Shown piece after piece: positions 12,618 through 40,638 of a stretch of 64,000 nucleotides of DNA. The DNA is from Favolaschia claudopus (taxonomy: Eukaryota > Basidiomycota > Agaricomycetes > Agaricales > Mycenaceae), in NCBI GenBank assembly GCA_037176885.1, contig JAWWNJ010000016.1, positions 1-64,000 on the forward strand, written 5' to 3'. The first letter of the stretch is position 1. Each line of letters begins with the position of its first letter. The notes under the pieces are model-generated. The model did no database searches and was not told the DNA's origin. It saw only the letters and a program-made list of their open reading frames with translations. A program made the translations under genes and the position numbers.

Positions 12618-14428
12618 TGATAGGGCCGCTCAGCGGCTAGGCATGAAATGCCTGAAATTTATCGATTTTCGAGATCTATCAGCGGGAGAAGTGAGGCTAG
12701 GATAACAGAAGGTATGCCCGACCTCGCGGGCAGTATCTTATTGCTGTGGATAGCCGATAAGCTGGCAGGCCACTAACAGGTAGCGGCGGCTTAGCGACGT
12801 TTCCCTAAACACGGGTGCGAGACTCTGCCGCTGACTATTTCTACTGCCAGGCCGAGAGACTTAGTGGGAAACTACTATCTCAAGGTGCTGGAGGCGACCA
12901 AGAGGAACTACCGACCTCCCTGAGGTTAGGTGCTCACCCCGCCGACCCACATGAAGAAGATCTAGCGGGGGACCATCTGAGTTCAACTTCGAACTCAGGA
13001 CGGCCGCCACTCTACCGACGAACATCATCACCGGCAGACTCTAGCCGAGCGCGCCGGCCGATCACAGACAGCCGGGACTTAACCGACTACCAGCGGGAGC
13101 ACCGCGGAGCCAGCGGCTACCCAACCAACGGCTCTGTCAGCATGATGAGAAGGACATGGCGAGTTGCCGGGGGCATTTCCCGCTGATTGCGGACAACCCG
13201 AACGGCGGGTGGCGAGCCGCTCACGCGGCCCGGCTCTCCCTATTTCCCCTGGGACTTAGACTGTTCTGAAGATAGGAGACGGGACGAACTTGACCGCTGT
13301 CGAGCCGTTGACTAACTACTCAGCGGGAAGCCTTTTCGACTTCAACTCGACCAGCGGCAAGACCATATTATGAAGGAGGAATTTCGTGTCTCCTCTCGGG
13401 GACATGGCAACCAGCACGCCATTGCACCGCAATAAGGCGCAATACCCACCCGCCCGCATGGACTTTCTCCGGGAGGCAGTCTTTTCACTCACGACTCGCA
13501 ATCCTGAATATACCATTGGTTCCCAGCGGGCGCGGCATCAAACTTGGACACTCTCTCATCATGATTTTATCTGGTTGTTTCTGCTCCCGCTGCATGTATT
13601 TAATCTCCCGGTGTACTTTTTGTTACTCAGTCAATTACCTACCCGTAGACAAGGGCAGTTTGTAGCGGACTCTAGAATTTGAATTGAAGCTTTGAAAGAG
13701 ACTAGACTTGATATCTGAGAGAGACTCGAGTGATACGGAAAGACTTGTGGCATACCGAGCCGCCAGAACTTTGAGAGCCCCGCCAGCCTTTGAGCCCGCG
13801 CCCTCCTGAAATACGAAGCCCCGTCTCTTGCAGTTCCGCGGTATAACCAAGACCCCCGTTCGTGCTTGATTCCGCGCCGTCGACGCCCCGTGTGCCCTGC
13901 CGTTCCGCGGTATTCAAAGACCCCCGTTCGAGCTCGCCGCCGCGTAGTGGTGTAAGTGCCCCGGCCACTGTTAGTGTCCGCGCCATCGACGTAAGAGCCC
14001 CGCTCCTCGCCAGAGCCGCGCCAGTTGAATAAGAACCCCGTCCCGCTGAGCCGCGCCTTCTGCCCGCCGGTTGTCATCCAGAAAGCTTCTTCCCGGTGAC
14101 GATCCACTACCGGGCGACGCTTTTCTATTGGCACGGAGACCCTCCCCGCTAGACTCAGAATTTCTCATTTCGAAGTCTCAGAAAGAGTGACTCTTCGCTT
14201 CTCCCCGCTGCAAATCGTTTTGCCCGCTACGTTCTCGCTAGACAATCTAGTAGTTCGTCCCGCTCAAACGTAGCGACCTTGATTGATTGAAGCTTGCACA
14301 AGTATTCTGAGGGACGATACGTGCTCCCGCCACCCCCGAACACACACACACACACGTCGTATTGGATTAGATTTAGTGATTTTTATATTTCGGTATATTT
14401 CACGCCTACACCTACACGCACCGTTTCA
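12618..14428 (+). repeat. 5' long terminal repeat (1811 bp)
   Basis: It matches 31,200-33,011 over its full length. It starts TGATAGGGCC and ends ACGCACCGTTTCA, the TG...CA termini expected of an LTR. It contains 13 copies of AGCGGG or CCCGCT and a (CA)n tract near 14,340. No convincing gene lies inside it. Confidence 0.95.
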
Positions 14429-14430
14429 TC

Positions 14431-14449
14431 TGGAGCCCACCGCGAGGGG
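14431..14449 (+). other. Primer-binding site
   Basis: TGGAGCCCACCGCGAGGGG begins two bases after the LTR end. It starts with TGG, complementary to a tRNA 3' CCA. The priming tRNA was not identified. Confidence 0.7.
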
Positions 14450-14592
14450 TGACAGATTATTTGTGTCAAGTCGAAAGAAATCACTTGTGGACGCTGCTAT
14501 AAAACTAGCACGAACCATCCGCCGGTTGACTCGAGAATAGAATATACACCCGCCCCGTTGAGCCTTTAGCTCCAGGCCCGCGATAGAAGATT

Positions 14593-16517
14593 TTGCCATT
14601 TAGTTTCGGAGGAGACGTGGCTTCAGAAGGACGATCCGCTAGAGTACCACCACCAAAACCTCGATCTACCAACACTAGCCTACGCGCCGCTGCTGCCGCT
14701 CTCGATCTCGAACTTGCCGATTCTTCCCTCCCGCCTGTTGCTCTCGCCCGGGAAATCTATTCTCTGCGCGGACGATCCCAAGCACAAGCTTATCGTGCCC
14801 GCCGAACCCAGTCGTTGAGCCCCTCTGCTCCGCTGGAACAACAGACCCCGACTCAACCGCCCGGCACTAGACCTGTTACGCCCGACGGTGCAGCTACCCA
14901 GTCGTCAACGACTCTCTCGTCTGTCTCTTCACCACTACTCCAAACTTCACCAACCCCTTCAAACAATCCAATGGCTGAAGACGGCAATAATACTGTCGCC
15001 CGAGGAAAGAAGCGCGCGCCGGAACCATGGGACAGGAACGCCCCGCTCTTCAAAGAAGATGAGCCGGAGGAACTCGTTCGTTTCCTGGACCATGTGGAGC
15101 GTATGATGGAATTAGATGAGACGCTGGCCGACAAGAAGAACGAGTTCGTCTGCCGCTACACCGCTCAAGCTACGGCTGAGGAGTGGCGGCAGTTCGACTC
15201 GTTCTCCAAGACGTTCGACGACTTTAAGAAAGAAATCTTGGAAAAATTACCCGTCAGTCGTCGACCAGAAGAAGGGCTCTGTGCAGAAATTGCACAAGCA
15301 GCTTCGTAAGTTCGCCGAAGAGGGGATTGACCGGGATGATGAGGACGAGCTCATGCGCCTCACGCGAACCATGAACGTCGAGGCGAACAAACTCCTCGAT
15401 TCAAACTTGATTTCGCACCGGGAAGCCCTCCCGATGTTCTTCTCCAAATTGACTCGCGAGTTTAAAGAGCGAATCCTGGAGAATCTCGAGAGGAAAACCT
15501 CCCGCTGAGGACGACGACGAGCCAGACGCCCGCTCATGGACGCTGGCCGAAGTCATGAGTGAGGCCAAAAAGATCGCGAAACGTTCGACCGCCAACTCGG
15601 AGTTCTTTGGCACTTCTGATCGAGGTTACTCGAGCAAGTCAAAGAGCGCCAGCGGCTCTGGACGAGCGTCGAGCGGGCGGTCGATTCTCCCGAATCCGAA
15701 CGTTGCGATTAAGAAAGAAGAAGAGGACCCTAACAAGGCCCTTCTTGAGACGATTAAGGTGTCAGTCGTCACTATGATGGAGCGGCTGGATAATCAGACC
15801 TCCCAATTAAAAGAGATCGACGCCGCGACCAAGAAGAAGATGGCTGAGTTAGAGTCCTTCTATAAGTCCCTACCGGGCAGAGTCCCAGGCGCCGCTGACT
15901 CCCAGTCTTACCCGCGAATGCCTACCGTGCAATTCAAAGGGAACCTGGCGGATCAGGGGTGTCTTTATTGCGACAAGTTTGGGCACTTTAGAGATAAGTG
16001 TCTCATCCGGCAAGCCCACATAGGGAGTGGAAAGATGAAGGTCGTAGGATTCAGAGACTGTTTTCCCGATGGGATACCTATCCCGAAGGACGGGCACAAG
16101 TCCAAGAAGCAGCAGGTAGAGGAGTACCGCCCGGCCGCACAACCAACGGCCGCTGCGCAAAACTACCAGTCTGTCTTCGCTCAGCTCTCCGTTCTTGACA
16201 TGGACGAGCAGGAGCTGGAAGCCGCGCAAGCCGCGTTCAGCCAGAACGAGGAATTCTACTATGACCCGAGAGAAGAAGAATTGGTTTCCTTGCGAGCTGA
16301 GCAAGTAAACCTCCAGCGGCAAGTGACGCAACTCCAGTCGCATGGTTCAGGGGGTGTTCAACCACCCCTTGTGGCTCATCAAAGCCAACCTCCCCCGCCG
16401 CAATTCGACGCCAACGCTGTTGCGATTCTACTGGCGGCTGTCTCAGCGAACTCTCGCTCTCCCAACGGGGCTGGTCCCTCCCGAACGGGGAACAGCGCCG
16501 AAGGAGAGCATTTTTAG
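14593..16517 (+). CDS. gag: Retrotransposon Gag with CCHC zinc knuckle (two apparent frameshifts)
   Basis: This is the structural nucleocapsid protein of the large element. The frame is open from 14,593 (a TTG), and the first good ATG is at 14,971 (MAEDGNNTVARGKKRAPEPW). It continues LFKEDEPEELVRFLDHVERM and DFKKEILEKLP, the usual alpha-helical gag domain. After shifts near 15,270 and 15,500 it runs through KLHKQLRKFAEEGIDRDDED, FFSKLTREFKERILENLE and VMSEAKKIAKRSTANSEFFG. A CCHC knuckle, CLYCDKFGHFRDKC (C-x2-C-x4-H-x4-C), lies near 15,960-16,000. The C-terminal part is Gln/Pro-rich with a probable coiled coil. It ends GNSAEGEHF at a TAG (16,515-16,517), where the next frame continues without a gap. 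Confidence 0.85.
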
Positions 16518-17775
16518 AGAGTTCGAGGAAGGGGGCAAAGGGGAAACCCAGTGCGGATAAGCCCCCGGAGAACAGACAAGTACGCCCGCCCGTAGGAAAG
16601 AAAATGGAAGTTGTGATGCCGAAGTTGCCCTACAAGCCGAGGACGCTGCGAAAGCCCGCTGTCGAAGCACAGCCGGCGATCGTTGAAACCAAGGAGAAAG
16701 GGCGGGAGGAGACAGAAGAACAAAATGGCGCTCAGCCGCCGGAGCTTCCGTATAGGAACGTTCCTCCGGTCAAGCCAGCCAAAAGGCCCAACGAACCTAG
16801 AGTTCGGCCGGCGGGAGATCCGCCGTTAGTGGCCAACGAGAAGAACTACGAGTTGAAGGCGCCCATAGAGGACCAGGACGATGAGGAGGTCGAATCCTTG
16901 ATAAAGGAGATCTTCGGAAACCTGGAAATAGCTCTCCCGCTGGGGAGACTGTTCGCCCTCAGCCCGAAGTTGCTGCGCCAGGCTAAGGCGTTGCTCTCGA
17001 AGAAGAGAGTCTCGCCCGCTGTTCGAGTAACCCTAGAACAGTTGATTAGCCACGCAGAGAGAGAGGCCGACGAAGACGACGAGTCCTCCAGCGTAACCGT
17101 AGAGGACCTACCTTACGAAGTAATAGTTCAGGTCGCGACAGCGGCCGACGGACTTATGCCAGCGGGAGCCCTGATCACCGTCGACCCAGTAGTCCAATAT
17201 TGGCAGTCGATAGTGGAGGGAGAGCCGGTAAGGGATGTCTTCGTCGCCATCTCCGACAACGCTTCTGCCGGAGAATCAGCGGCCCTGAGGGTAGTCTTCC
17301 CGCTCATTCACGGCGCCGCTGAAGTTGAATGTATTCTGGACGGTGGATCGCAGATCGTGTCCATGGCCCTGTCGGTAGCCACCGAACTAGGAGTCAGCTG
17401 GGACCCAGATAACTGCATCCACATGATGAGCGCCAACGGGCAAACCGAGAAGTCAGTCGGTCTGGCCAGGAACGTCCCCTTCAGGTTCGGTGACATGACG
17501 GTGTACCTTCAAGTGCATGTCATACGAAACCCGGCCTACAAGGTGCTGTTGGGGCGACCCTTCGAAATCCTGACCGCCAGCGGTATCAAAAATACCTCTG
17601 ACGGGAACCAGTTCCTGACTTTGACCGACCCCTCCACGCAGAAGCGGTGTGGTCGTCCCTACCTTCCCCAGAGGCCAGCGGCGACAGGTGCGGCGCGTCC
17701 AGAACGACGCATCACCGGCTGAGCAGCCGAGCAGCCAGGAGGAGCAAAATTTTCAGAATTCGAGGAGTTGATTAA
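16518..17775 (+). CDS. Retrotransposon protease region
   Basis: The frame overlapping the gag stop continues ALESSRKGAK...PPENRQVRPPVGKK into a Lys/Pro/Glu-rich linker, then a retropepsin-like domain. Around 17,330 it reads ECILDGGSQIVSMA, where the active-site loop is DGGS rather than the usual D-[ST]-G. The flap-side region NPAYKVLLGRPFEILTASG lies near 17,530-17,585. It ends in the sequence GNQFLTLTDPSTQKR, typical of this fungal lineage. One extra base near 17,650 diverts the frame. With it removed the reading continues VVPTFPRGQRRQVRRVQND and stops near 17,773. The protease would process Gag and Pol. The start is set by frame continuity with gag, not by an ATG. Confidence 0.75.
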
Positions 17776-20700
17776 CCATCAAGGAGAATTAGCGGTTCAG
17801 ATAGAACTGGACGAGAATAATGTTCCTAGAATTTGCGCTTTGATGAAGTCTGGAGAAGAGGGATTTTCGATGGCCGAGACGAAAATGGCCTACCTGGCGG
17901 CTGCCATGCCAGAAATTGATGATGAACCCGCTGCTCAGTTATTCCAAGAATACAACGAGCAGCTGACAGAAGGAAAGGAAGTCGGCGAATCCTATGTGGC
18001 TATCGTAGCCAACATAACGGACAAAGTCAGAGAAAAACTGAAGGACCCGGCCGCTGTGTTTATGACTGCCGGCATCGATATTGAGTCGGTTAGGCAAGAG
18101 CAATCTCGTCATTCAGCGGGGGAGCGCTGTCAGTGCTGTGACTACGCCGATTGGGTAGTACCCGGGTTTGAACACAATGAGACGAAAGTCGCTTTGATGG
18201 AGGAAATCATTCCCGAGGATCACCCGCCCGAAGTCGAGGTGAAGGAGGTGTTCTCGAAGAAGTATAAACCGGTAGCGCTAAAAGTAAAGCCGGTCCTCGA
18301 GCCGCTCCCTCCCGAGTTCAGGATAGAAAGGAATATCATCGGGGATCCATTGCAGAACCTCGTCCCGCTAGACCCTCACCCGCCAGAATTCGTTCCCGTC
18401 GGAAGATACACTGCGGAGAGGAAGGCGGTGGTGGACGAACTGCATGACGATGGATTCTTGAATGATGAAGAGATGAAGCTGGTTCATCATATGTTATCTA
18501 TACACGAAAATACGGGTAGCATGGGATGACAGCGAAAGAGGAACTTTCAGAACGGATTTCTTCCCGCCAGTAAAGTTCCCGGTGAAGCCAGACCATAAGG
18601 TTTGGGTGGAGAGAAATATTCCCATCCCGCCGGGGCAGCTGGAGGAAGTCTGCAAGGTGCTTAGGGCGAGTATCGATGCCAATATATATGAACCATCTAA
18701 TGGCTCGTATCGCACCAAGTACTTTGGGGTTCTGAAGAGTGATAAGAAGTCAATTCGGTTAGTGCATTCGCTGGAGCCGCTGAACGCGGTAACCATTGCA
18801 CACTCTGGGGTGCCTCCCGGCGCCGCGGATCTGGCCGAACATTTCGCAGGAAGGGCTTGTGGGTCCACGTTTGATCTTTACTCTGGGTACAACCACCGGC
18901 TGATTGACCCGGAATCTCGAGATTACACAACCTTCCAAACTCCGTTTGGTGCGCTTCGATTGGTAAGATTGCCGCAGGGTTGGACCAACTCGGTGCCGAT
19001 CTTCCACGAAGACGTAACTTACATCCTGCGAGATGAAATTCCTGCGGTTACCCGGCCGTATATAGATGACGTGCCTGTCGCCGGCGGCTTCACTCGATAC
19101 GAAAAGCCTGACGGGACGTACGAGACCATCCCTGAGAACCCGCTGATAAGGGTCTTTGTGTGGTTACACTTGGTAGACTGCAACCGGGTACTTACCCGGC
19201 TAGCCTATTCTGGGGCGACTGTAAGCGGGAAGAAGTTGCAGATTTGCCGGGGAACTTTTAAGGTGGTCGGCCATGTCTGCTCATACGAGGGCATGCGCCC
19301 GGATGAAGATAGAATTGGCGTCATTGAGCGTTGGGGCCCGCTGAAGGATTTCCACGATGTGAAAGCTTTCCTGGGAACTGTGGGCGTTATGAGAATGTTC
19401 ATCCAAGACTATACAGTCAAGGCTGAGCCGATCCAGAAGCTCACCCGGAAGGAAGTCATATTCGAGTGGGGCCCGGCCCAAGACGCATGCATGAAAGTTT
19501 TGAAGAAGGCTTTGCGAGAATGTCCCGCGCTTAGACCTATAAGATATGAATGGGACACTGAAGTGGTGCTGGCGGTTGATACGTCGTACCTTGGAGTTGG
19601 GGTGCATGTGTACCAGCGGGATCCTTTGGACCTAAATAAGCGGTACTATGCCCGCTTCAGCTCCATACCTTTGAATGACCGGGAGTCGAGGTATTCTCAG
19701 CCCAAGCGGGAATTGTTTGGCTTGAAGAGGGCGCTAGACCACATGCAATATTGGCTGTTGGGCTGCCGCAAGCTGGTCGTCGAAACCGACGCTCAGTACC
19801 TCAAGGGCATGTTGGATCACCCGGGAATGGGGCCCAACGCTACGATCAACCGCTGGATTGAGGAGATCCTGATGTTTCATTTCACTCTGAAGCATGTACC
19901 GGGCAAGACTTTCGGGCCAGATGGACTCTCCCGCCGGCGTATTCAGCCGGGGGATCCAGAGTATGATCATCCAGAAGACGAGTTCGATAATAACGAGCCG
20001 CCGGGTCTTCATCCTGAAAGTAGTGCTTGGCCGCCTCTCAAGAACTTCGAGGATTTCAAGCACGATATTGACACCCGAGGTGGATATATGGTAGCGGAAT
20101 TGGCGGGAGACGAGGCTCGGTCAGCCGCTGACTTCGGAAACGACGCCGAGCAGGCTTGGGCTTACACCCGCCTTGGTAGAGAACATGTTTTCGAAGTCTT
20201 CTCTCAGTCAAAGGGTGGCGACAAGCCAGACGGCGAGCCGCTGATCCCTGACCTCGAATTGAAATACGACCCGACGAAGCGGGAACCGTATTCTGAAGAC
20301 CAACGATCGGTAGCAGCGAAGCTAGCGGACGAGCGGCTGCTCCTCATGAAGGACTGGCGGCGGAATACCCTGGCTCGCCCGGCTGGCATGAACGACAAGG
20401 AATACAAAGCCTTCTTGCGATTCGCCACCGGCTTCTTCGAGGACGCAGATGGAAAACTCTATCATAAATCCTCAACGGGGAGTGCACATCAGTTGGTGGT
20501 AGACAAAGATCACCGAATGTATATGATGCGGGCGGCTCATGATAGCCTGGCCCACCGCGGTGTCTTTGCTACCAAATCCTTGATAGAAATGCGTTTCTGG
20601 TGGCCTGAGATGGAGCGGGACGTCACCTGGTATATTAAAACTTGCGAATTGTGTCAGTTGAGGCAAAGGACTTTATTAAAGATCCCGCCCGTTGTCACCC

Positions 20701-21857
20701 ATACCCCTTCGCTCTTCCAGGTGGTGCACGTCGACGTGATGGTCGTTGGAACCCCTTCCAACGGCTTCAACAAAATTGTTGACGCCCGCTGCTCCCTCAG
20801 CAGCTATATAGAAGCGCGGCCGATAAAGAATGAGAATGCCAGAACATTGGCCTTGTTCTTACTTGAAGATGTGATTTGTAGGTGGGGCTGCCCGGAGGAA
20901 TTGGTGACAGATAATGCACCGGCCTTCCTAGCGGCTGTGGCCTACCTTGAGTCTAAGTATGGCATAAGGAATATTAGAGTTTCGCCGTACAATTCTCAAG
21001 CCAACGGGAAAATCGAAAATGGGCACTTCTCGATGAGGCAATCCTTATGGAAAGCTACTGGCGGGAATCCCAGCAAGTGGTACTGGTTCTTCCCGCAGAT
21101 GTTGTGGGCTGACCGGGTCACTATTCGACGAGGAACAGGTTGTTCACCCTACTTTATGGTAACGGGCGCACATCCGATCCTCCCGCTGGATATAGAAGAG
21201 GCGACTTGGCTAGTGCATCTGCCCGGCAGGACTCTGACGACCGCTGAATTAATCGGTTATCGAGCCCAGGCCTTGGCTAAGCACGCCACTCACGTCGAAC
21301 AGATGAGGGAGCGGGTCACCGACGAGAAACGAGCGAATTTACACCGGTATGAGATAGCGCATAAACACACTATCGAAGATTACCATTTCGAGCCGGGAGA
21401 CTTGGTGCTCATCAGGAATACGACCGTCGAGAAGTCGCTGAATACGAAGATGGCCGCCAGATACCTGGGACCAGTAATTATCATCCGTCGTACGAAAGGT
21501 GGAAGTTATATCGTAGCGGAGATGGACGGCTCTGTCTTTCAATCGAAGATTGCTCAGTTCAGGGTCGTCCCCTTCGAGCAGCGGCGCTCAATTAAGCTGC
21601 CCGCTGACATTCACGACTTAATCGACCTCTCGGCCGAGACGCTGGAAAAGATGGTCCAGGAGGAAGACGGTTATTCTGGAGACGACTTCCAATTCGGGAA
21701 TGTGAGGTTAACCCCCAGCGGGACGGCTGACGAAGAGCCAACTCTGGAGGAGGCCTTGCCCGAGGAAGAAGAAGAGGAAGAGGAGCCTGGCACGGATGAG
21801 CCGCTGCCTTTCAAACGAAAGACTCGTTCTGCCACAAAAGCCGCCGCGCGGAAATGA
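17768..21857 (+). CDS. pol: Retrotransposon Pol: reverse transcriptase, RNase H, integrase
   Basis: The frame opens near 17,768 (TTG; no clear ATG). It has one apparent extra base near 18,515 (HENT... then VAWDDSERGTFRTDFFPP) and is then open for 1091 codons to 21,857. The RT shows KSIRLVHSLEPLNAVTI, GALRLVRLPQGWTNSVPIF and the catalytic YIDD box near 19,062. RNase H follows with VLAVDTSYLGVGVHV and VVETDAQYLKGML. The integrase zinc finger is H-x3-H-like, AAHDSLAHRGV to CELCQLRQR near 20,535-20,665. The DDE core shows VVHVDVMV, LVTDNAPAFL and NGKIENGHF. The C-terminus has an acidic run (EEEEEEEEPGTDE) and a basic tail, with no chromodomain seen. The domain order is Ty3/Gypsy. Confidence 0.93.
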
Positions 21858-22079
21858 ATTACTGCTAAGATATCTACGTTACAATTTGAAACGGGATTCG
21901 AAGTCTTTAAGTAATTGGATTGTCTGCATCTCCCGCCAGTGAGCAGCGACTAAGTTGCGCACCCGGGGAGCGTGTGGCGGCCAGCAGAAGGATGAGCCGT
22001 GAGGTGTCCGAAACGATTGAGCCAGTACCGAGTATGCTGAAGAAGGGGGGACCCGCTGGGGAAGCTCCTTGGGAACGAG

Positions 22080-23329
22080 TCAAGGAACATGAGCATCGAC
22101 GCCGGCAGAGGAGGACTCGGGGAACTCGCGAAGGCGAGCCGAGATCTTCTCTCCTTCGTCGAGGAGCTGCTCGCGCCGGGCCAGAGAGCTACGAAGGTTC
22201 TCGTGGATGACCGCCAGCTCGACCATGATGAAATACATCCGCTTGCGCAAGGCAAGGTGGTTGCTCATGAACTCGGTACCCATCTCAACGACGCTAGCGG
22301 CCTCGTCGACGACGGCACCTGAAGCGGGTGCCGAAGCATAGAATTCAGCCGTTCGCTGCAAAAACACTCAGCGGGAGGAATCACTGACAGTGAACGGGAA
22401 ACTCACCGTGGGTGAGGAAGGAGTCCTCGTGGAACGGGACGCTGTCGATGCGGGCGCGCTTGTTACCCTTGCCCTTCTTAGCGGGGGCCGGGCTATGCTG
22501 AAAGAACTAAATTTTGAATGAATGAAATTGAAAAGCAGAAATAACGGGCGACTTACAGCGCGCACACCCTTCTTGCCCGCCAGGGCTGACTTAGCCTTGG
22601 GACCGGTAGGGGGAGCCTTGGGAGCAGGGACATGCTCATCGTCAACGAGCATCTGGGTGAACAAACACCCGACGGCGATGATAGAAGTATCAATCGTCAG
22701 CTCTACACAGGCCAGCTGTTAAATGAAAGAACGAACCTCGTCAGCACCAACGGTGGTGAGAGCGGGCGATGGAGCACGAACGGTGCCTTCGTCCTCGTCC
22801 TCAGACTCGGGTTCACCCTGAGACCGCCCGCGAGTACTCTTCTAGCGGGGGATGATGGTGAGTCAGTGGTGAACACGGCAATAAAAGTTAGTGAAACCGA
22901 CCCGGGTCCCCTTGGAAGAAGAAACGGTGGAGACGGGCGGGATCGCCCTCTTGGAACGGTCTTCGTGAATGGCCTTGGTGATCCGCCGCAGGGCATCGTA
23001 CCCAGCGGGGAAGGTCACGTCCCGTTTACCATCCGGGTCGTACAAGGAGTGGTAATATTCACGCGAAGTGAAGATTGCCTCACGAAGAACCGCGCTCTTG
23101 TCTTCCAAAATGAAAGGCATGAGCGGGGGAAGGCGCGCCTACGAACGAAAGAATAAATGTTAACGAAACGAGACTGGTCAATGTAGCCGGCGGCTCTTAC
23201 GAGAATCTCGGCGACGTCCTTGAGCTGGTTTTTACGAGACTCGGGCGGCGAATACTTGACGAGGTTGGCGGCAACGTCCATAGCCTTGAGGAAATCGGCT
23301 TTGACGGTGTTGTAATCGTTTTGAGACAT
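22080..23329 (-). CDS. Antisense accessory gene E: small charged protein, nuclear-type
   Basis: This spliced minus-strand gene lies inside the LTR element, just downstream of pol and antisense to it. Exon 1 (23,329-23,201) gives MSQNDYNTVKADFLKAMDVA and continues to KNQLKDVAEIL. Later exons give REAIFTSREYYHSLYDPDGK, then an Arg/Ser/acidic linker (RGRSQGEPESEDEDEG). A basic nuclear-localisation-like KKGKGNKRAR precedes a helical C-terminal part near 22,300-22,080 (LALRKRMYFIMVELAVIHEN). GT-AG introns fit phase by phase. The acceptor of the last intron is ambiguous: the one near 22,358 gives a stop, one near 22,325 keeps the frame. There is no cysteine cluster. The function is unknown, and the family was not recognised. 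Confidence 0.65.
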
Positions 23330-23751
23330 TTTTGAAGGAAGCAGAGTAAAGACAGTAGACGAGGCTGGGGAGTATACCCGTTCGCCCGCTGCTTCTTATA
23401 CTCGAGCGGCCGTAATATAACGCCGTAAGGATAATTAGGACGAAATTTGGACAACAGCCGAACTTGGATTACCATTTATGGTAGATGCACCCGCCGGTGG
23501 CGCAGAAAATTATTTCAAACGCGCCCGATCGTTCCGTGGCACAAAAATTTGCTGCCGGGGGACCTGAATTTCCTCTGATCGATCAACTGAGGACAGTTGA
23601 GATTTCTGAAAGGGGGAGAGGTGGGTCACCTAGCACGTCATTTGAGGGCAGCGGGCACATCTTTACCAAGAAATAAATGTTTCCAAGGCCTCACATGGGG
23701 CGGGAGCGTGTGTTATCGGAACGAACTATCCGAAAGTACATGTGCCTGTAT

Positions 23752-24380
23752 CTACACTGCCCGCATCCTAGCGGGAAGATCCAGGAAAAGATTATTTGCG
23801 AGAACGTCTAACCGCTCGCGGATAACAGCAACATACGCAGTCGGGAGATTAGCCGTTTTGGCCTCTTGCAGAAGATGGAAAACCTGGCGGGCCTCGAAGT
23901 AAAAAGACAGTCGTTGGGTTGCCTCTGCGACGTTTCGACCAACGATTACAGCATGGTATTGTTGCCAGAATGGGAACTGCGCCAGGGTCCCCTCGTGAAC
24001 GACGTCCCAAGCAGCAAGCTGTTCCTTCGTAGCCGCTAGAAGCGAGCGGAGGATCAGTTGTGGCGCAACAGATAAGAAAGAAGTCGTCACTTACGATCGG
24101 GACCCTCTTTGAAACGGTGCCGGCGGGCAGCTATTTCATCGGCCAGCTCAGCGGTCTGAGTGTACGAGCAGTTGTGCTTCAGCAAGAAACAGCGGGTACA
24201 CGGTGCTCCCCACTCAGTAAACTCGCAATGAGAACGGGCGTTGAGGCACGCAGAGCATACCCGGCCAGGCTGCCGAATGATGAGGAATTACCCGAGGCAA
24301 AATGTTCAGGAACGTACATAGTACTCCCTGAGCGGGCCGACGGGGTCATTCGGAAAGAGCGGATTTTCCAGCAAAGACAT
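23752..24380 (-). CDS. Antisense accessory gene D: Zn2Cys6-type protein, 173 aa
   Basis: Three exons (24,380-24,318; 24,269-24,095; 24,035-23,752) join in frame to 173 residues. Residues 26-55 form CSACLNARSHC, EFTEWGAP, CTRC, FLLKHNC: C-x2-C-x6-C-x8-C-x2-C-x6-C, the spacing of fungal Zn2Cys6 binuclear clusters. Intron 1 (48 bp, phase 0) lies exactly four residues before the first cysteine. The C-terminal half is helical (EQLAAWDVVHEG, EATQRLSFYFEARQVFHLL). The basic residues usual between Cys 2 and Cys 3 of GAL4-type proteins are sparse, so DNA binding is inferred, not shown. It is a paralogue of genes A, B and C by cluster and intron position. Confidence 0.78.
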
Positions 24381-24664
24381 GAGTAGACGACTGAAGCAAA
24401 TGGGACCTTCCCGCCAGCTTAAATACCCCTCTGAGACCTGGCGGGAGACCCAAAAACATAGAGATCGACGGTGGGACTCATTGCACCCGACGCTCCCGGA
24501 AGATCCGCAATACATGTGGAATATCCAACGAGGTGCTGAGCTCCCGCTGAGCGAAAAACACGAGGAAGCTTTGGTTTCTAAGAAGCCTTCCTAATCGGGC
24601 AGCTTGAAACAGAGTTTTAAAGATGCAAGTTCGTTTGACAGTGGGAATATATTTCCTACTACGC

Positions 24665-25335
24665 TTACGGCCCGATGAACATAACGGGCGGGAGCCTTGC
24701 GCCGGACTGGAGAGCTACAGCGTCTAACCTATCCCGGAGGAGATCTACAATTTCCTTTCGCATGCCCGCCCCCTTCGCATCAAACCACAGCCTATACAAG
24801 AAGCGTAGCTGGCCAAACCCAAGGGTGCCGAGCATGGACCTGGCGGCGAGGATGGTGCAAGTACGCACATCAATGTACAACTTCTCGTCGAATCGGGCAG
24901 CGGCAGCCCTGGCGTACCAGTCAAACTGAGCGATCCGCCCGGCGGAGGGAGCTAAAATCCAGTAAGCCCCCGCCGAGAGGTAGAAAGAGAGAAAGCAGAC
25001 TTGCCTGGCTGAGAGGCTAGAAGAGTGTCGCGACGACGGCTGTTCTCGGCCTGCCAGACGGACTTCTTAGTGTAGCAGCACAAGGCGGCGCGACCTATGA
25101 ACATGCAGCTGAGGCAGGCTTCACCCCACTGAATCCAGATGCAATGGCGGTAGTTCTTGAGGCAGCACTGGCATTCGTACTCCGGCTAAGAAGGGGCACC
25201 CGTCAGCGGGAGAGCACCGAGAAAGAACGAAAGACCCACAAACTGAGCTTGAAGTACGAGCTGGTACTCTGAGGGACCGGTAAAGCTCCTAAAGCGTTCT
25301 GAGTAAAAGGTCGCTGCCAAAGAAAAGGCGGGCAT
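24665..25335 (-). CDS. Antisense accessory gene C: Zn2Cys6-type protein, 187 aa
   Basis: Three exons (25,335-25,240; 25,185-25,005; 24,951-24,665) give 187 residues in an unbroken frame. Intron 2 is GC-AG. Residues 37-68 contain the pattern C-x2-C-x6-C-x8-C-x2-C-x8-C (CQCCLKNYRHC, IQWGEACLSC, then CC after MFIGRAAL). The WG two residues before the fourth cysteine is shared with genes B and D. Intron 1 is phase 0 and ends four residues before the first cysteine. The C-terminal part is helical (FGQLRFLYRLWFDAKGAGMR, EIVDLLRDRLDAVALQSGAR). It sits head-to-tail with B and D on the minus strand, antisense to pol. A regulatory role is inference. Confidence 0.75.
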
Positions 25336-25507
25336 CGCTCGAAGGACTCACTGGGCACCGGCCGCTATAAGTAAAATCTATAGCCGACGGGTGAGTACCG
25401 CCGGCTGCCGGACCAAAAGCTCAGGTGGAATCAGACATCACGATAACGGCTTGCAACCGGGCAAAGAGATTTATTTGACCCTAACGGGGAAAAGCTACTA
25501 GCCTGGA

Positions 25508-26249
25508 TTATCCCTCGAAGGTCTGGCGGCGCGTGCCTTGGGTCAAGGGCACGAAGGTCGGAACATGAGCGTCCCGCCGCCTGACATCATGAAGAGAGAT
25601 AGCCGCGTCGACATCGCATTGGGCATGGATCGAACGGTCCTGAGCGCGCCACTCGCGTAAAACTCGAGACAGGATGTTGTAGAAATACAGCCGCTGGCTG
25701 GAGTGAGCGGCGTGAGACAGGTCGTGAGCAATGTCCCAGTCACGAAGGTTGCCGGCAAATTCCTCCCGCCGAAGTAAAAAGTCAGCGGGCTCACCGTCCA
25801 CCGAGCCTATGAACATATCGGGGCTTAAGCCGCCAAGGCGTAGGTGGTACCAGAGTTCGAGGAATGCAAGGTCGTATAAAGTGCCGCCTGAGTAGCATAA
25901 GAAAGATGAGAATTTGAAGAGCGGCTAGACTTACCGCTGCGATAGATGAAAAGTGTCGGAAAGGTCGAAGATGGATAGGTAAACTTGAACCAATCCACCC
26001 CGGTGAACAGACACTTGGGGACCTTCGCCTCCCGGCACCGAGTGCACTTCGAGCCCCAGTGAAGAAATTCACAGTCTTCGCCGGCGTCGCTACAAGGCGT
26101 GCAGACGAGATTCGGCTAGCGGCTGGTTGGACTTGGCGCAGAAATGTGTTGAGGAAGCCTACCACAGTATAGATCTTGCGCACGAAGTCCTGACTGGCCA
26201 CCGGGAAGGAATGATAGTCGATTAAGACTTCACCTATGGGCTGAGGCAT
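25508..26249 (-). CDS. Antisense accessory gene B: Zn2Cys6-type protein, 215 aa
   Basis: Three exons (26,249-26,163; 26,115-25,935; 25,887-25,508) give 215 residues. The start is MPQPIGEVLIDYHSFPVASQ. Residues 34-64 contain CTPCSDAGEDC, EFLHWGSK, CTRC, REAKVPKC: C-x2-C-x6-C-x8-C-x2-C-x7-C. Intron 1 (47 bp, phase 0) lies four residues before the first cysteine. The region after the cluster is hydrophobic and helical (LYDLAFLELWYHLRL). The segment RDWDIAHDLSHAAHSSQRLY resembles the equivalent part of gene D (AAWDVVHEG, TQRLSFYF), which supports common descent. There is no frameshift or stop in 648 coding bases. The family name and target are unknown. Confidence 0.78.
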
Positions 26250-27048
26250 GGTAGTTGAAAGAAAAAGATGGTTTGATTGGCTATCTACCCCTATCGAATA
26301 CAAGTACGGTAGCGGGTAACTCGATCCGCCGGGCCGGTTCTACTCTACGTTATCACTCTTACGAGACCAGCGGGAGAAATGAGGAACTAGTCGCCCGATG
26401 GAATCCGAGGACAGCCGCTGACAGCTGGATGAGATGCCGCGGGCAATCCCCGCTATCTGATGATCCCGGTGATAAGCACCGTTGCCGCTCGGCATGTTGA
26501 AAAACTCGAAAAGTTCGAGTGTTCAGCTCGCCCTCCAAGTCGTGCTCAGCCGACGGGCGCAGCACTTAGTTGGAATTCCTCACTTCAGACTCTTACAAGA
26601 CACTTAGAGGCTCTAGTCGGGGACTCTGACTTTGGAACTTAGAAAGAACTTAGAAGTTGATCACACATAAATGAGAGCATCGTAAAATTCTTTATTTTGC
26701 GCTTCATCGGCTCTTTGGCCGGTACACGATACTACTCTACCCGGGGTACTTGATTTGAATCTAAAATTTTTATTTGGTGGGTCATGGCGGGTGGAATTCC
26801 ACCAGGCCAGACCCTTCGCAAGAAACGGGGTTATGGGACCCGTGCCCGTAGCTTTTGATGATTTTGGGGGCCGCTCGGCCCCCGCGATTATGAATACAGA
26901 AAAATTTCTGGAATGAAGTCAGTGTGAAGTCAAAGGCAGCGGGAGGTCGGGCGAGTCGCTTACTTGCCGCCCGCCCACCCACGAGGAAAGGCTGTAAAGA
27001 TGGTCAGCGGGGGATGAGACTCAGGAAAGGGGGAGCGTGCTTACCCGC
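26250..27048. other. Spacer between antisense genes B and A
   Basis: No coding region was seen. It would hold the promoter of gene B and the 3' end of gene A. It contains several AGCGGG/CCCGCT hexamers. Confidence 0.4.
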
Positions 27049-30000
27049 TCAGCTCTCGACAGTGTCGTCACCCGAAGGAGCAGGATGATCGGGAAAATGC
27101 ACGTCTGCATCTTCCTCGCCCACTGCATCTACTTCTGGCCCAAGGTCCTCCTCGCCGCTGGCTGCGAAATCGGCGGTGCCCGGGATTTCGACTTCCTCGA
27201 GGTCGCTGTCGCCTTCCTCATCGACTTCCCCCTGGACGCTCCCGCGAACCTCGGCCTCGCTGTCCTCCTCGCCGCTGGACTCGTCCTGTGCAAACGACTC
27301 AGCTAGGAAGTCCTCGACAGCGGGTGCACCCACCTCGCCGGACTCTCCTTCCTCTTCGTCGCTAGACGAAGGGATGGGCGGCTCGACTGCCCGCTGTTTG
27401 CCCTTCGGGCGCTTTTCAGGAGTCGGCGGGCGAGAGATATCCATGGCTAGCGGGAGAAGTTGACTTCAGCAATGAATTGGAAAGAAGAAATAAGAGGTAA
27501 CGTACGGTCGTCCGGGGCCTCGCCCATGTCTTCCTCTTGGGAAGTCGGGTCGGGTTTGAACTCGTCGTCGGCGTCGTCGTGAACCACAGAAGACGACTTC
27601 ACCTTGCCGCTGGACTTGGCCTTGCGCTTCGGCTCTGGCGGAGGAGCGTCGGGGATCTCGAAGAACGTACCCTTACGGTACAACATCTTGAAGAAGCCGG
27701 GCACGCTCTTGTGCTCCCAGCTGTAAGGCAAGACATTGCCGTCTTCGTCGTTTGGGTCGAGATTAATTGGACCTTTACCGTAGAGGAGGAGGCGCTGTCG
27801 GACTTTCGAGCCGTCGGGGATCTCTTCAGCGGCGTCCTCTCCCTTCAAGTCGTGGAAGAGGTCCACGCAGTCCTCCGGCTATGGGAATAAGAGGGTCAGC
27901 GGCCCAGAAGAATAATGTAAAGAAAGAATGGGACTTACTTGCACTTCGACCCACTGTGTCGGAATCGCGAGTTCAGGCTCAGCCGGGATGAGGTAGAAGG
28001 CGAGCGGGACATTTTGGTCCTGGCGGTCCTTGGCTTCGTAAAAGGCATAGGCGTCCTCGAAGCCGGGGATAGGGACTTCGTCGAGGACCTCGCCAGGGTA
28101 ATATTGCCAGCGGCGGTTCGACTTGATAGTCGACGAAGCGGTCAACCCCTGGGTCATGGCGATGCGCAAGACCTGGTCCATGTTCTTCTCCTGCTCCTCG
28201 GGGGTCTCGCCGGCGAAGCGTTTGATGAAATCCTCCCGCTGGATCTCCCGGCGGGTGACCAAGACAGAGAGAAGCATCTTGAAGGACTTCTGGTTCAAAT
28301 TCCAGCGCGCCTTCTCGAAAGCGTCTTGGATGGCGAAACAGGTGTCCGCGGCGGTGTTGACATCGGCGTTCAAGTCGAACCACTCTGTTGAAATGGTCAG
28401 CGGGCCTAAACGGGAAAGTAGTGGTTGACTTACCGGGCCGGGTCATCGAGACCCATTGCTTCAGCCCGGAGCCCATGGAGCTGATCTTTTCGCCGTCGAG
28501 AAGGAAAGTACAGTCCTTTGTGGACTTGCGGCTGGCGCAGGCCGTGCACTCGCCGGGGACGCCGGTGGATTCGCACTTGCTGCCGCAGGCGATGCACCGC
28601 AGGCAGCGGGGACCGTTCTAGATAGGGAAAGATTGAGGAAAGAAATAATCGGGAAAGAAAAAGCTGTCTTACATGAGCGACGTTCAGCTCGAGGTTGCCA
28701 ATGAGGTGATTGGCGACCAAAGCAAACTGCTCCTTCTCGGGGTCGTACGGGAGGTCCTGGCGGCGAGCGGCTTGCGGGTAATTAGTGAACAACTTGTTCA
28801 CGACGTCCTTGTTCGGCGGCCTGAACTCCCCATCGGGGCGAGGCTTGCTCTTCTTCTTGATCGGCTCCATCGACCTGATGGGCTGCTCGGGAAGCTAAGG
28901 AGGGAACGCGGGAGGTTAGCCAGAACTTTGAATTCCCCGCCCGTAGAAAGAAGAACTCGCCGGCTTGGCCGGTTTGATACCGACGCCCTCCAAAGCAGCG
29001 AGTTGAGCGGCGCGGGTGCCCAGCCCTTTGAGAGAGGGCACTGTGTCGACGGTGGCGGCTTTAGCCTTCTTGCTCTTTCGAGTGGCGGGCGGCTTGGTCT
29101 CTATCACTAAGAAAGATTTTCAGCGCAGAAAACAGGCGGCGTTGGACTGACTTACGAATTTCGAAGTCGGGAACGGGAACGCGCTCATCGCTGGAGCTCG
29201 GGACGCTAATGACAGACTACGAGAAGTTTATTGTTAATTCTATATCGGCCTTACATTGAGGGCAGCAGCGGGCGACGACTACCTGACTACGAGACGGGGC
29301 CTTGCCCGCTTTGTCCTTGACCGCCCTGTCCTCTTTCGCCTTTTTGGAGGGGGACGACTCGGCGCCGGTTGAGACCTTGCGTTTGATGCCGCTGCCGCTG
29401 GCGGTCGGGGTGTCGGCGGGAACCTTGATGGTCTTTTTGACTACCTTGACCCGCTCGGGCTTGGGATCGTCGGTAGTTGATGTGGTCTAAACGCGAACAG
29501 TCAGCCGGGAAGAATCAAGATAAACTAGAAATGAAACTCACCGTCTTCGTGAAATTTGGGAGTTTCTTGGGCTGGGGCCGGGGCGTGTCCTCCCCCTACA
29601 AGAAAGAATTAGAAAAAAAAGCGATTGACGGCTGCCCCGACTTACCTTGGCAGCGGCCTTGCCGCTGACTTTTTCAGACTCAGCGGGCGTCGTAGCGGCC
29701 TTTCCGCTGACTTTGCCAGACTCTTTGGCGGCGGGCGCGGCTTTGCCGCTAACTTTGCCAGACGAAGACGCGGCCTTAAAGGAAAATCTAGTCAGAATCG
29801 CCCGGTGAAAAGGTTGACAAAACTTACCGAGGCGGCTTTGGTCCTCTTCGGTACGAAGAGTTGAGTGGTCGGGACCGGTGGTATAGGGAATGCTTCCATA
29901 GCCTCAGTAGGGGGCGGGGGCAAGAATAGCTAGATGAACGATCAGCGGAAGCGAAGCCAAGAAAGTTACTGGCCGGGCGCACCTTCTTTTGCTTGAGCTC

Positions 30001-30520
30001 GGTCTTGCGGTAACGAAGGGCCTGAATATCGGGCAGGTGCTCCTCCGGGTCGAACGTCTGTATGGCCTTTTGAAGATGGACGCTTATGGCAAGGGCCATC
30101 GGGGGAGGCTCGAGACCTTTCTGGGCAACCCCCAAGATCGCCCGGTGCTCCCTCTAGAAAGAAATTAATAACTGAAAGAATAAACAGCCGATGAGAACTT
30201 ACCAGCGGCTGCTGGATGGAGCGCAACAGTTTGCCGATTCCAGACTGAGAGTAGTCCGCGAGCTTCGACGGGACAAGAAGCTCCTGCAGAGTCTTCCACT
30301 CCTCCGGCTTGTCGCGCCATACGGCGAACCAGTCCACGCTAGAAGAATCCAGCGGCGGCGGAGGGAGTTTGGTCGATTTTGAAGACGATGCGGCAGGCGG
30401 CTGCCCAGGACCAGAAAGCTGTTTTCGAGGAACCGGTGGTGGAGACGAAGCGACCGGGGCGCGACGGGAAGAGCGAGATTCAGAACGGGAGGCGGAGCCG
30501 CCGCTGGGTTTGGGAGCCAT
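27049..30520 (-). CDS. Antisense accessory gene A: large multi-exon Zn2Cys6-type protein, about 930 aa
   Basis: The minus-strand gene starts MAPKPSGGSASRSESRSSRR at 30,520 and ends VES at 27,049. Thirteen exons are supported by GT-AG introns and phase agreement (for example 30,520-30,203; 30,153-29,983; 29,929-29,828; 28,894-28,673; 28,617-28,434; 28,384-27,939; 27,878-27,506; 27,446-27,049). One junction near 28.95 kb is not resolved. The N-terminal half is Ser/Pro/Lys-rich with repeated GKVSGKAA units. At 28,605-28,510 lies CLRCIACGSKC, ESTGVPGE, CTAC, ASRKSTKDC: C-x2-C-x6-C-x8-C-x2-C-x8-C. A phase-0 intron ends four residues before the first cysteine. A folded middle (DTCFAIQDAFEKARWNLNQK, YYPGEVLDEVPIPGFEDAYA) and a strongly acidic tail follow. 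An activator-like architecture is possible but inferred. Confidence 0.78.
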
Positions 30521-31187
30521 TGCGGGACGAAATAATCAAAAAGAAGAGCTTCCCGGTGCAAGGCGCCAGAAATCCAGTCGGCGGGCGAAAGACAGAAAGA
30601 TTAAACGAAGGGAAGAGAGGGCAAGGGGGTACCCAATCGGGGAATCGGTGGGGAATCCGCCCAGAAACCTCCCGACTCTTTATACCCTGAAGAATCGGAG
30701 TTTGAATGTTTGATGGGATTCTCGAGAAAATTTCAGAGAAAAACATTTGAATGAAGAAGCGGGGGGTCCCCGCGGCTTCTTTGATCCAAAACATTCCAAA
30801 CTGCGGATGAATAGGACGGCTTTAGAGAGCGCAGGGTTAGAGTTTGATTCGAGCGCTTCTCTGATTTGATGTACTTCCGAAAAAGGCAGGAATGACGCCT
30901 CATAATGAAAGTGACGGCATCGCCGGCCGCGGCGAGAAGTTGAGTCCAGAAACTGTCAACGGAGGTAGAGTGGGATCTAAAATTAGGTCGCCACGAGTCC
31001 TTCGTTAAGGTTTTCTCTCATGAAATACCAAAGGGGACGAGCGGGAACCGGGCCTCACTGGCGGCCCGTTCGTTATCTAAATTTGTTCCAAGACAAAGTT
31101 TTTGTCTTGAAGTCCCCTTCCCCGGGAAGATGGATAAGATCTCTAGCGGGCGGTCCCAAGCCGTCAACTCGGGAGAGTTGAAATCTA
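30521..31187. other. 3' non-coding part of the LTR element
   Basis: No convincing gene is present. It lies between the start of antisense gene A and the polypurine tract, so it probably carries the gene A promoter. It still shows the AGCGGG signature (for example near 31,040 and 31,147). Confidence 0.45.
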
Positions 31188-31199
31188 GAAAGGGGGAGA
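31188..31199 (+). other. Polypurine tract
   Basis: GAAAGGGGGAGA lies immediately before the 3' LTR (TGATAG at 31,200), the expected plus-strand primer of an LTR retrotransposon. Confidence 0.8.
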
Positions 31200-33011
31200 T
31201 GATAGGGCCGCTCAGCGGCTAGGCATGAAATGCCTGAAATTTATCGATTTTCGAGATCTATCAGCGGGAGAAGTGAGGCTAGGATAACAGAAGGTATGCC
31301 CGACCTCGCGGGCAGTATCTTATTGCTGTGGATAGCCGATAAGCTGGCAGGCCACTAACAGGTAGCGGCGGCTTAGCGACGTTTCCCTAAACACGGGTGC
31401 GAGACTCTGCCGCTGACTATTTCTACTGCCAGGCCGAGAGACTTAGTGGGAAACTACTATCTCAAGGTGCTGGAGGCGACCAAGAGGAACTACCGACCTC
31501 CCTGAGGTTAGGCGCTCACCCGCCGACCCACATGAAGAAGATCTAGCGGGGGACCATCTGAGTTCAACTTCGAACTCAGGACGGCCGCCACTCTACCGAC
31601 GAACATCATCACCGGCAGACTCTAGCCGAGCGCGCCGGCCGATCACAGACAGCCGGGACTTAACCGACTACCAGCGGGAGCACCGCGGAGCCAGCGGCTA
31701 CCCAACCAACGGCTCTGTCAGCATGATGAGAAGGACATGGCGAGTTGCCGGGGGCATTTCCCGCTGATTGCGGACAACCCGAACGGCGAGTGGCGAGCCG
31801 CTCACGCGGCCCGGCTCTCCCTATTTCCCCTGGGACTTAGACTGTTCTGAAGATAGGAGACGGGACGAACTTGACCGCTGTCGAGCCGTTGACTAACTAC
31901 TCAGCGGGAAGCCTTTTCGACTTCAACTCGACCAGCGGCAAGACCATATTATGAAGGAGGAATTTCGTGTCTCCTCTCGGGGACATGGCAACCAGCACGC
32001 CATTGCACCGCAATAAGGCGCAATACCCACCCGCCCGCATGGACTTTCTCCGGGAGGCAGTCTTTTCACTCACGACTCGCAATCCTGAATATACCATTGG
32101 TTCCCAGCGGGCGCGGCATCAAACTTGGACACTCTCTCATCATGATTTTATTTGGTTGTTTCTGCTCCCGCTGCATGTATTTAATCTCCCGGTGTACTTT
32201 TTGTTACTCAGTCAATTACCTACCCGTAGACAAGGGCAGTTTGTAGCGGACTCTAGAATTTGAATTGGAACTTTGAAAGAGACTAGACTTGATATCTGAG
32301 AGAGACTCGAGTGATACGGAAAGACTTGTGGCATACCGAGCCGCCAGAACTTTGAGAGCCCCGCCAGCCTTTGAGCCCGCGCCCTCCTGAAATACGAAGC
32401 CCCGTCTCTTGCAGTTCCGCGGTATAACCAAGACCCCCGTTCGTGCTTGATTCCGCGCCGTCGACGCCCCGTGTGCCCTGCCGTTCCGCGGTATTCAAAG
32501 ACCCCCGTTCGAGCTCGCCGCCGCGTAGTGGTGTAAGTGCCCCGGCCACTGTCAGTGTCCGCGCCATCGACGTAAGAGCCCCGCTCCTCGCCAGAGCCGC
32601 GCCAGTTGAATAAGAACCCCGTCCCGCTGAGCCGCGCCTTCTGCCCGCCGGTTGTCATCCAGAAAGCTTCTTCCCGGTTGACGATCCACTACCGGGCGAC
32701 GCTTTTCTATTGGCACGGAGACCCTCCCCGCTAGACTCAGAATTTCTCATTTCGAAGTCTCAGAAAGAGTGACTCTTCGCTTCTCCCGCTGCGAATCGTT
32801 TTTGCCCGCTACGTTCTCGCTAGACAATCTAGTAGTTCGTCCCGCTCAAAACGTAGCGACCTTGATTGATTGAAGCTTGCACAAGTATTCTGAGGGACGA
32901 TACGTGCTCCCGCCACCCCGAACACACACACACACACACGTCGTATTGGATTAGATTTAGTGATTTTATATTTCGGTATATTTCACGCCTACACCTACAC
33001 GCACCGTTTCA
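31200..33011 (+). repeat. 3' long terminal repeat (1812 bp)
   Basis: It is a near-identical copy of 12,618-14,428. The differences seen are about seven substitutions, all transitions, and about eight 1-2-bp indels mainly in homopolymers or the CA tract. It ends CACCGTTTCA at 33,011. Confidence 0.95.
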
Positions 33012-38500: not shown

Positions 38501-38614
38501 CTATTATCTGCACCTCTCTTCACTACCACAAATGTACATCCATTGGGGCAGAAAATCAAGACAAGGGTCATCAATTTTGTCAAGAAAACATTGAAACTGC
38601 ACAAATCACAGTAG
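35557..38614 (+). CDS. NLR-like STAND protein: Gly-rich N-terminus, NB-ARC, TPR array (948 aa)
   Basis: Five exons (35,557-35,608; 35,664-35,756; 35,812-36,037; 36,090-36,477; 36,527-38,614) join in frame to 948 residues. The N-terminus is glycine-rich (GGTGGAGGVGGCHGGVGG). An NB-ARC follows, with Walker A GLGGSGKS (102-109), Walker B LLLFDNADD (170-178) and IIITTRNP. From about residue 474 come nine 42-residue TPRs of kinesin-light-chain type plus a degenerate tenth. The units are close to AEQLEVTVLEARKRVLGKEH and SMANLASTY. Fungal STAND proteins of this layout are thought to act in non-self recognition: TPRs bind a ligand and the NTPase oligomerises. No known death-effector domain is visible at the N-terminus. 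The tail is Ser/Thr-rich and ends in a basic segment. Confidence 0.92.
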
Positions 38615-40595: not shown

Positions 40596-40638
40596 TAAGC
40601 AATACTTATTCCAAAATATTTACGCTCGGCGTCACGCA

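Follow-up and report, generated by a model that had tools for sequence, protein, structure and literature searches.

The DNA analysed here, hereafter the window, is a stretch of 64,000 nucleotides from the Favolaschia claudopus genome (contig C16, positions 1-64000), and it contains a Ty3/Gypsy-type long terminal repeat (LTR) element of 20.4 kb at positions 12618-33011. The element carries gag and pol on the plus strand. From the pol stop (21857) to the 3' LTR, 9.3 kb are filled by five minus-strand genes, which we call A to E and, together, the cassette; an earlier reading of the same sequence, the preliminary description, had put this gap at 8.5 kb. We are highly confident that the cassette is a proper part of the element family and that its exons are constrained. 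In addition, gene E is a module exchanged among elements that are otherwise mostly alike in genes A to D.

The retrotransposon framework given in the preliminary description, with matching LTRs, a primer binding site, a polypurine tract and gag-pol, was confirmed. The 5' LTR (12618-14428, plus strand, 1811 bases) and the 3' LTR (31200-33011, plus strand, 1812 bases) are 99.1% identical. Both have TG...CA ends, beginning with TGATAGG and finishing with GTTTCA, and identical termini are found in the copies on contigs C9 and C36. The primer binding site (14431-14449, plus strand) starts with TGG two bases past the 5' LTR and complements the 3' end of tRNA-Arg(TCT). In the genome, the end expected for this tRNA occurs at 15 places and at none in a backward control, and ARAGORN called a tRNA-Arg at the one place inspected among the 15. 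The gag and protease region (14587-17722, plus strand; Asp_protease_2, PF13650) is followed by pol (17723-21857, plus strand), which codes for reverse transcriptase, RNase H and integrase, and the 3' polypurine tract (31187-31199, plus strand) lies directly before the 3' LTR. Pfam matches follow the order protease, reverse transcriptase, RNase H, integrase. The aspartyl protease, RNase H and integrase zinc domains exceed the cut-off, RVT_1 lies slightly under it (28.3 bits versus 29.6), and the integrase core PF00665 was not matched by Pfam in the window pol and is annotated for several pol homologues. These homologues number 1405 among 7993 scored protein-database candidates; the best of the 120 listed is 78% identical, and a Mycena chlorophos protein is 58% identical.

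We searched the host genome (264.6 Mb, 460 contigs) with DNA queries, for each of which the 40 best places are listed. The gag and protease region is found at at least 40 places at 91-100% identity, and the window element belongs, as a single copy, to a Ty3/Gypsy-type LTR retrotransposon family of high copy number. In the window copy this region is broken into several frames, and the stretch exceeds its counterpart in the near-identical C9 copy by five bases. This break, like that in gene A described below, may be a mutation or a consensus error.

All five cassette genes are split by introns. Gene A (22081-23329, minus strand) has six exons (23329-23201, 23138-22902, 22841-22782, 22715-22557, 22497-22407 and 22355-22081). 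Genes B (23752-24380), C (24665-25335) and D (25508-26249), likewise on the minus strand, have three exons each and 173, 187 and 215 codons, with a six-cysteine (C6) motif at 24168-24257, 25075-25173 and 26011-26103, respectively. Gene E (27049-30520, minus strand), which in the window is of the type that we call E1, has a C6 motif at 28510-28605 and an acidic C-terminus. The 23 predicted introns are 47-66 nt long, 21 of them GT-AG and two GC-AG. The models were made by hand and checked on codon-phase data; automatic splice models based on the codon usage of pol mis-split the cysteine-rich exons and were not used. Gene E had been described before with an uncertain junction; it is now resolved as a single gene of 13 exons and 935 codons. 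For gene A, the model of six exons holds, with its last exon out of frame in the window copy; the frameshift is absent in all 16 other copies displayed (four were left out).

Constraint was read from 21 copies, namely the window and 20 further stretches of 10 kb each (L numbers), which were selected by their match to the cassette, so that its presence in them is by choice. Third codon positions hold 42 of the 52 variable sites in gene A (7/3/42 by codon position; ratio of nonsynonymous to synonymous polymorphism, pN/pS, 0.070; 18 of 21 copies, with L018, L019 and L027 excluded for indels) and 21 of 27 in gene B (6/0/21; 0.104; 21/21 copies). The corresponding shares are 26 of 37 in gene C (7/4/26; 0.056) and 72 of 111 in gene D (21/18/72; 0.193), both in 20 of 21 copies with L020 excluded, and 315 of 500 in gene E (113/72/315; 0.188; all nine E1 copies, the window included). 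Against an expectation of one third, binomial p values for the five genes range from 5e-6 to 9e-42, and they serve as guides only, since the copies are related. Variable sites in the introns are without consistent phase. They are denser there than in exons for gene E (206/664 versus 500/2808), gene D (30/94 versus 111/648) and gene C (20/107 versus 37/564), with only a slight intron excess for gene B (8/107 versus 27/522). Purifying selection acts on the antisense coding exons about as strongly as on pol (0.08; 0.078 in eight copies, including the window), so that the element apparently needs these genes. Thus, the five minus-strand, intron-bearing genes first seen in a single copy are upheld by the variation among copies. 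It has been suggested that antisense transcripts may regulate elements, according to the part of PMC7264820 available, so that antisense transcription itself, through double-stranded RNA or interference, could be the function and the proteins incidental. We consider this very improbable, because the third-position bias and pN/pS values of 0.06-0.19 show that it is the protein sequence that is under selection.

The cassette is found in many copies of the element. A search with 21900-31190 returned, among the matches listed, five full and two nearly full matches besides the window, and many partial ones. Genes B and C together match at least 40 places at 95-100% (145 first-look candidates), E1 at least 40 places at 84-100% plus one small piece, and pieces like the diverged type E3 make up 62 rows at 71-100% among the matches listed. 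Starting from pol instead, a cassette part lies downstream on the same strand within 13.5 kb at 31 of the 40 best places, the window included; this tally compares the pol list with the lists for the whole cassette, B plus C, E1 and E3, each of the 40 best places. Further copies with pol plus cassette parts, for which the preliminary description proposed to search, are at hand. The tally suggests that most of the listed copies carry the cassette, and presence in every copy of the family would be more than 31/40 supports. In all seven copies retrieved by pol (L002-L008), the gene A region follows directly after pol, and all 20 cassette-selected copies terminate in the identical junction of polypurine tract and LTR. 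Among these 20, the cassette is complete or almost complete in L013-L019, its start being divergent in L018 and L019, and L020 is without 1.07 kb that includes gene C. Two groups of six (L021-L025 with L027, and L026 with L028-L032) match across A to D and diverge over gene E.

The flanking sequences bear on the integration of the copies. The C9 copy has CCGA on both sides, a 4-bp target duplication. The window copy has CCGA on its left and CCGT on its right; it is without a matching target duplication because its flanks derive from two insertion sites. Its left flank is that of the C9 copy (identical over 119 bases and 100% over 418), and the C36 copy combines CCGT on the left with the C9 right flank, the reciprocal of the pairing at the window copy. 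This arrangement is what an exchange between two insertions would leave behind, the window and C36 copies being its two reciprocal outcomes; it may stem from ectopic recombination or from an assembly switch. Since the flanks come from two sites, the LTR divergence of the window copy was not used as a date. The window right flank has an allele on C28 at 92% identity, in which the C36 left flank is joined to the window right flank with a single 4-bp target (CCCT) and no element. Because of this empty junction, the site is probably heterozygous for the element.

These data bear on whether genes A to E could be host genes, a cluster that one insertion happened to pick up. The introns and TATA-like boxes do resemble those of host genes. 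However, cassette parts stand beside 31 of the 40 listed pol copies, E types are exchanged between copies, and the different flanks together with the empty allele show separate insertions. No cassette match at a proven non-transposon locus was found among the 40 best places, some of which lacked a listed pol match. A host cluster is scarcely credible, and a chance host insert in the window was rejected on the tally, the differing flanks and the empty C28 allele. The proposal that an accessory cassette is mobilised with the element is thus sustained, by the 31/40 pol copies, the 7/7 copies with gene A, the 20/20 junctions, the empty allele and the selection on the exons. The regulatory role proposed with it fared less well, as no DNA-binding family exceeds the threshold in its proteins.

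Other features of these sites were also seen. At 11494-12617, open reading frames with collagen-like Gly-Pro repeats and a gag-like frame are cut at 12617 by the insertion and apparently belong to another element; weaker copies of 12200-12617 are present on C107, C60 and C29. Copies of gene E are spaced by about 18.6 kb, one LTR-to-LTR unit, at the end of C34 and at both ends of C268. On C19, C66, C121 and C420 gene E lies at an equal offset from the contig start, and C19 and C66 begin inside it. These positions may reflect arrays in which units follow head to tail and share LTRs, or else loops in the assembly.

At least three types of gene E can be told apart, E1, E2 and E3; they are strongly diverged, and all have the six cysteines. 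In matched blocks, protein identity to E1 is 27-62% for E2 (L021) and 26-48% for E3 (L026, L029). Over 21858-26640, by comparison, 17 of the 20 copies are 96-99% identical to the window, the others being L018 (95.3%), L027 (95.6%) and L019 (86.7%). The block in which E1 and E2 are dissimilar begins at 26989-27007 and finishes at 30539-30609, hugging the E frame (27049-30520), and its only DNA match, present in three of six copies, is one of 75-77% at the exon with the Cys motif. E2 and E3 are constrained as well. Third positions account for 10/12 and 27/36 of the variable sites in two E2 exons and for 17/21 in one E3 exon, stops are absent in 6/6 copies of each type, and pN/pS in these exons is 0.09-0.11. 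On a tree of A to D (23028-26250; 20 of 21 copies, L020 dropped), the E type changes five times when the minimum possible is two, and L021, an E2 copy, is nested among E1 copies under starred branches. Since the E type reassorts on this tree, gene E is a swapped module.

We also asked which other parts of the element go with the E type. That the E type tracks U3, as for a promoter-specific regulator, was not supported, because a single U3 type (91-100%) is common to E1 and E2 copies. Only the U3 of E3 copies differs, with 64-69% identity, and is 78-79% identical to a short U3 piece of L019. That it tracks gag was not supported either, because identity to the window overlaps between types (E1 94-100%, E3 91-99%, for copies pairable in the lists). 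In the two E2 copies read there, the 5' gag region is cut at different points with unrelated sequence upstream, so that these are truncated or interrupted. Pol identity fails to separate the E types among the seven copies compared. Gene E differs most between copies and reassorts, which would suit an anti-silencing or host-interaction module whose proteins counter fungal transposon defence, with the E types in an arms race; its retained Cys frame and low within-type pN/pS are likewise compatible with this. Within-type values of 0.09-0.19, on the other hand, denote constraint, and we judge such a module unlikely.

The cassette was scanned for promoters with one simple TATA-like pattern and an upstream limit of 250 nt. 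The minus strand has three matches, all within 250 nt 5' of an ATG, namely TATAAG 71 nt upstream of gene A, TATTTAA 45 nt upstream of gene B (each exact in 20/20 copies) and TATAAAG 164 nt upstream of gene E (8/8 E1 copies). In the region corresponding to the gene E box, all six E2 copies have TATAAAG and all six E3 copies TATAAAA. The plus strand of the cassette has two TATA-like matches.

Two further occurrences of the 3' polypurine tract core, AAAGGGGGAG, lie on the plus strand of the cassette in the window, and the core is absent from the minus strands of all 21 stretches. The first internal tract (23608-23621, plus strand) has the exact 10-base core in 21/21 copies. A CAACT...AGTTG hairpin stands 5' of both this tract and the 3' polypurine tract (window 23585-23621 and 31160-31199). 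The second core (27023-27035, plus strand) is present in eight of nine E1 copies, including the window; it has a counterpart in four of six E3 copies and is absent at that place in E2 copies, three of six of which have one elsewhere. Judged by sequence, the internal tracts could serve as internal starts of plus-strand synthesis, or they could be left over from the joining of modules; in antisense, they also look like the pyrimidine tracts that precede splice acceptors. It is suggestive only that the left edge of the E swap in the window adjoins the tract at 27023-27035. Central polypurine tracts occur in lentiviruses and Ty1, and the tract at 23608-23621 resembles them in its sequence, sharing the core of the 3' tract in 21/21 copies.

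The cassette proteins share a cysteine motif. CX2CX6CX8CX2CX6-9C, which is zinc-cluster-like, occurs once each in B, C, D and E, and a pattern scan found none in gene A. It is kept in 21/21 copies of B, D and E and in 20/21 of C. B, C and D align over their full length, with B sharing 25% identity with C and 34% with D, and, from their sequences, they look like paralogues. The motifs have the six-Cys spacing of the Zn2Cys6 cluster PF00172, and weak matches to this profile, under the curated cut-off of 21, were obtained for the motif exons of B (16.7 bits), E2 (14.0) and E3 (14.4). For these three exons PF00172 is the sole Pfam match, which in E2 and E3 is confined to the second half of the profile. 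No Pfam match was obtained for the motif exons of C and D, and the motif exon of E1 matched two unrelated families weakly and not PF00172. A profile of six Cys motifs searched against the PDB gave as its best hit a neurotrophic factor fragment (E 0.09); LEU3, a Zn2Cys6 protein, scored E 1.2. Among viral contigs, three pattern matches contained no true relatives. Gene E further codes for an acidic tail and for a KVSGKAA-type repeat tract, the latter encoded by a 42-bp tandem repeat within the gene at window 29652-29763. Basic tracts resembling nuclear localization signals can be read in the sequences of A and E. Alignment-free folding was uninformative for exon 11 of gene E (predicted local distance difference test score, pLDDT, 37.5) and gave a helical last exon for gene B (pLDDT 68).

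We suggest, by analogy, that genes A to E may encode nuclear accessory proteins, of which four have zinc-cluster-like motifs, and that these may regulate the expression, copying or silencing of the element, with gene E giving type specificity. This is the reading we prefer, tentatively and at somewhat short of an even chance. A competing one is that the cassette proteins are structural or transposition factors that act in the pre-integration complex, nuclear import or target choice. Selection at about the strength of that on pol, the place of the cassette beside pol in 31 of 40 listed copies, and the basic tracts in A and E would all suit such factors. However, no integrase-, capsid- or tethering-like domain exceeds the Pfam cut-off in A to E (five of six exons for gene A), and separate antisense promoters would better fit nuclear expression independent of gag-pol than particle stoichiometry. 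We give such factors a minor but real chance.

Several points weigh against nuclear regulators encoded by a cassette proper to the family. In classical Zn2Cys6 clusters that bind DNA, the residues from Cys 2 to Cys 3 include a basic stretch that contacts the DNA; most of the motifs here lack it (SDAGED in D, for example). Pfam gave no match above cut-off for A to E, the scan of gene A covering five of its six exons singly. No significant match was found for residues 400-780 of E or for the B/C/D alignment among 4072 and 7998 protein-database candidates, respectively, which is weak evidence of absence, as the content of spliced fungal proteins in the database is uncertain; nor did the PDB search with gene B and the Cys-motif profile give any. 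With no significant homology, the case for a nuclear regulator is built on the spacing of the cysteines, on the basic and acidic tracts and on analogy. Genes C and D are without a TATA-like match within 250 nt upstream. U3 does not follow E1 versus E2, which speaks against a simple model in which E binds U3. On the side of the family, nine of the 40 listed pol copies have no cassette part assigned among the listed cassette matches, and the 20 copies read closely were chosen for cassette similarity. The stop counts for B to E were taken on window columns, with insertions elsewhere of 0-1 base in B and C, 0 in D and at most 17 summed in E.

The element thus has two gene programmes, a sense one of gag-pol primed by tRNA-Arg and an antisense one of five intron-bearing genes. 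An intron that lies in antisense cannot be spliced out of the sense genomic RNA, which is the RNA that is reverse transcribed, and the intron-bearing genes therefore survive rounds of copying. Returning to nuclear accessory proteins, the antisense strand could be a nuclear accessory genome that is shielded by its orientation from intron loss. Gene E would be its exchangeable type determinant, shuffled by recombination during reverse transcription, possibly with help from the internal polypurine tracts close to gene borders, and would set which copies are repressed or helped by the elements already in a cell. This scheme of an accessory genome with a type determinant is speculative and has a low probability.

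Elsewhere in the window, an NB-ARC/TPR (NLR-like) gene at 35745-38614, 2.7 kb from the insertion, has about nine TPR units of 42 residues that are about 80% alike in DNA, and there are at least some 37 further related rows in the same genome. A repeat of about 1.15 kb at 8383-9529, 99-100% identical in at least 40 rows (477 candidates), is a young high-copy element. Inverted repeat pairs lie at 40332-40608 and 42331-42625 (78%) and at 43594-43728 and 48899-49033 (85%).

Lambdoid phages that are otherwise alike exchange immunity regions, and the E types coexist similarly among elements with much the same gag, pol and genes A to D. Fungal Zn2Cys6 proteins (PF00172) have the same Cys spacing, whereas the matches here are below the cut-off and the basic stretch is mostly missing. 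HBZ of human T-cell leukaemia virus type 1 (HTLV-1) is spliced and encodes a bZIP protein. Its antisense promoter lies within the 3' LTR, in contrast to the TATA-like boxes inside the internal region here. In the parts of PMC7264820 and PMC11963269 available, HBZ is presented as an antisense gene of a reverse-transcribing element that encodes a nuclear protein.

Antisense accessory open reading frames of LTR elements have long been known, with their function unknown, according to the available part of PMC7264820. The preliminary description had pointed out that plant elements such as Grande carry extra antisense frames, and this is correct also for Retand, RIRE2 and the fungal Boty (available parts of PMC7264820 and PMC11963269). 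In maize Grande, with gene23, and in rice RIRE2, an antisense accessory gene follows pol and precedes the 3' LTR, and for Grande its own promoter and a nuclear protein are reported (PMC7264820, in part). These are plant elements described there as carrying open reading frames, with no mention of a Cys-cluster motif in the available part of PMC7264820, whereas the genes here have introns and four of them have such a motif. The plant Retand lineage is marked by antisense open reading frames, with TRP28 in 97% of clusters, and its author suspects a regulatory role, as stated in the available part of PMC11963269. Between pol and the 3' LTR lie 2.9-6.6 kb there and 9.3 kb here, and TRP28 (PF04195) was not found here in B to E or in the five exons of gene A, out of six, that were scanned. 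The main text of PMC11963269 does not mention introns; here there are five genes, 23 introns and a swapped gene. Boty, or BcGypsy1, of Botrytis cinerea is a fungal LTR element with the antisense gene brtn between pol and the 3' LTR, as here (cited in PMC7264820 and PMC8365987, each available in part). It is set apart by its description, in which one additional antisense gene is named, compared with five here.

The literature searched, which comprised titles and abstract openings and had most subscription journals outside it, showed no LTR element in which five spliced genes form an antisense block or a cassette carries a Cys-cluster motif. Single antisense accessory frames are known from Grande, Retand, RIRE2 and Boty, and what is new here is the presence of three constrained, reassorting types of gene E. 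The element offers a natural system of five antisense genes that show clear selection at the codon level, four of which have a Cys-cluster motif, together with three E types in one genome. Because these three natural types share a genome, function can be tested by comparing types. Laboratory retrotransposition reporters keep an intron-bearing gene in an RNA-copied element by placing it in antisense, and the element described here shows this antisense-intron device in nature.

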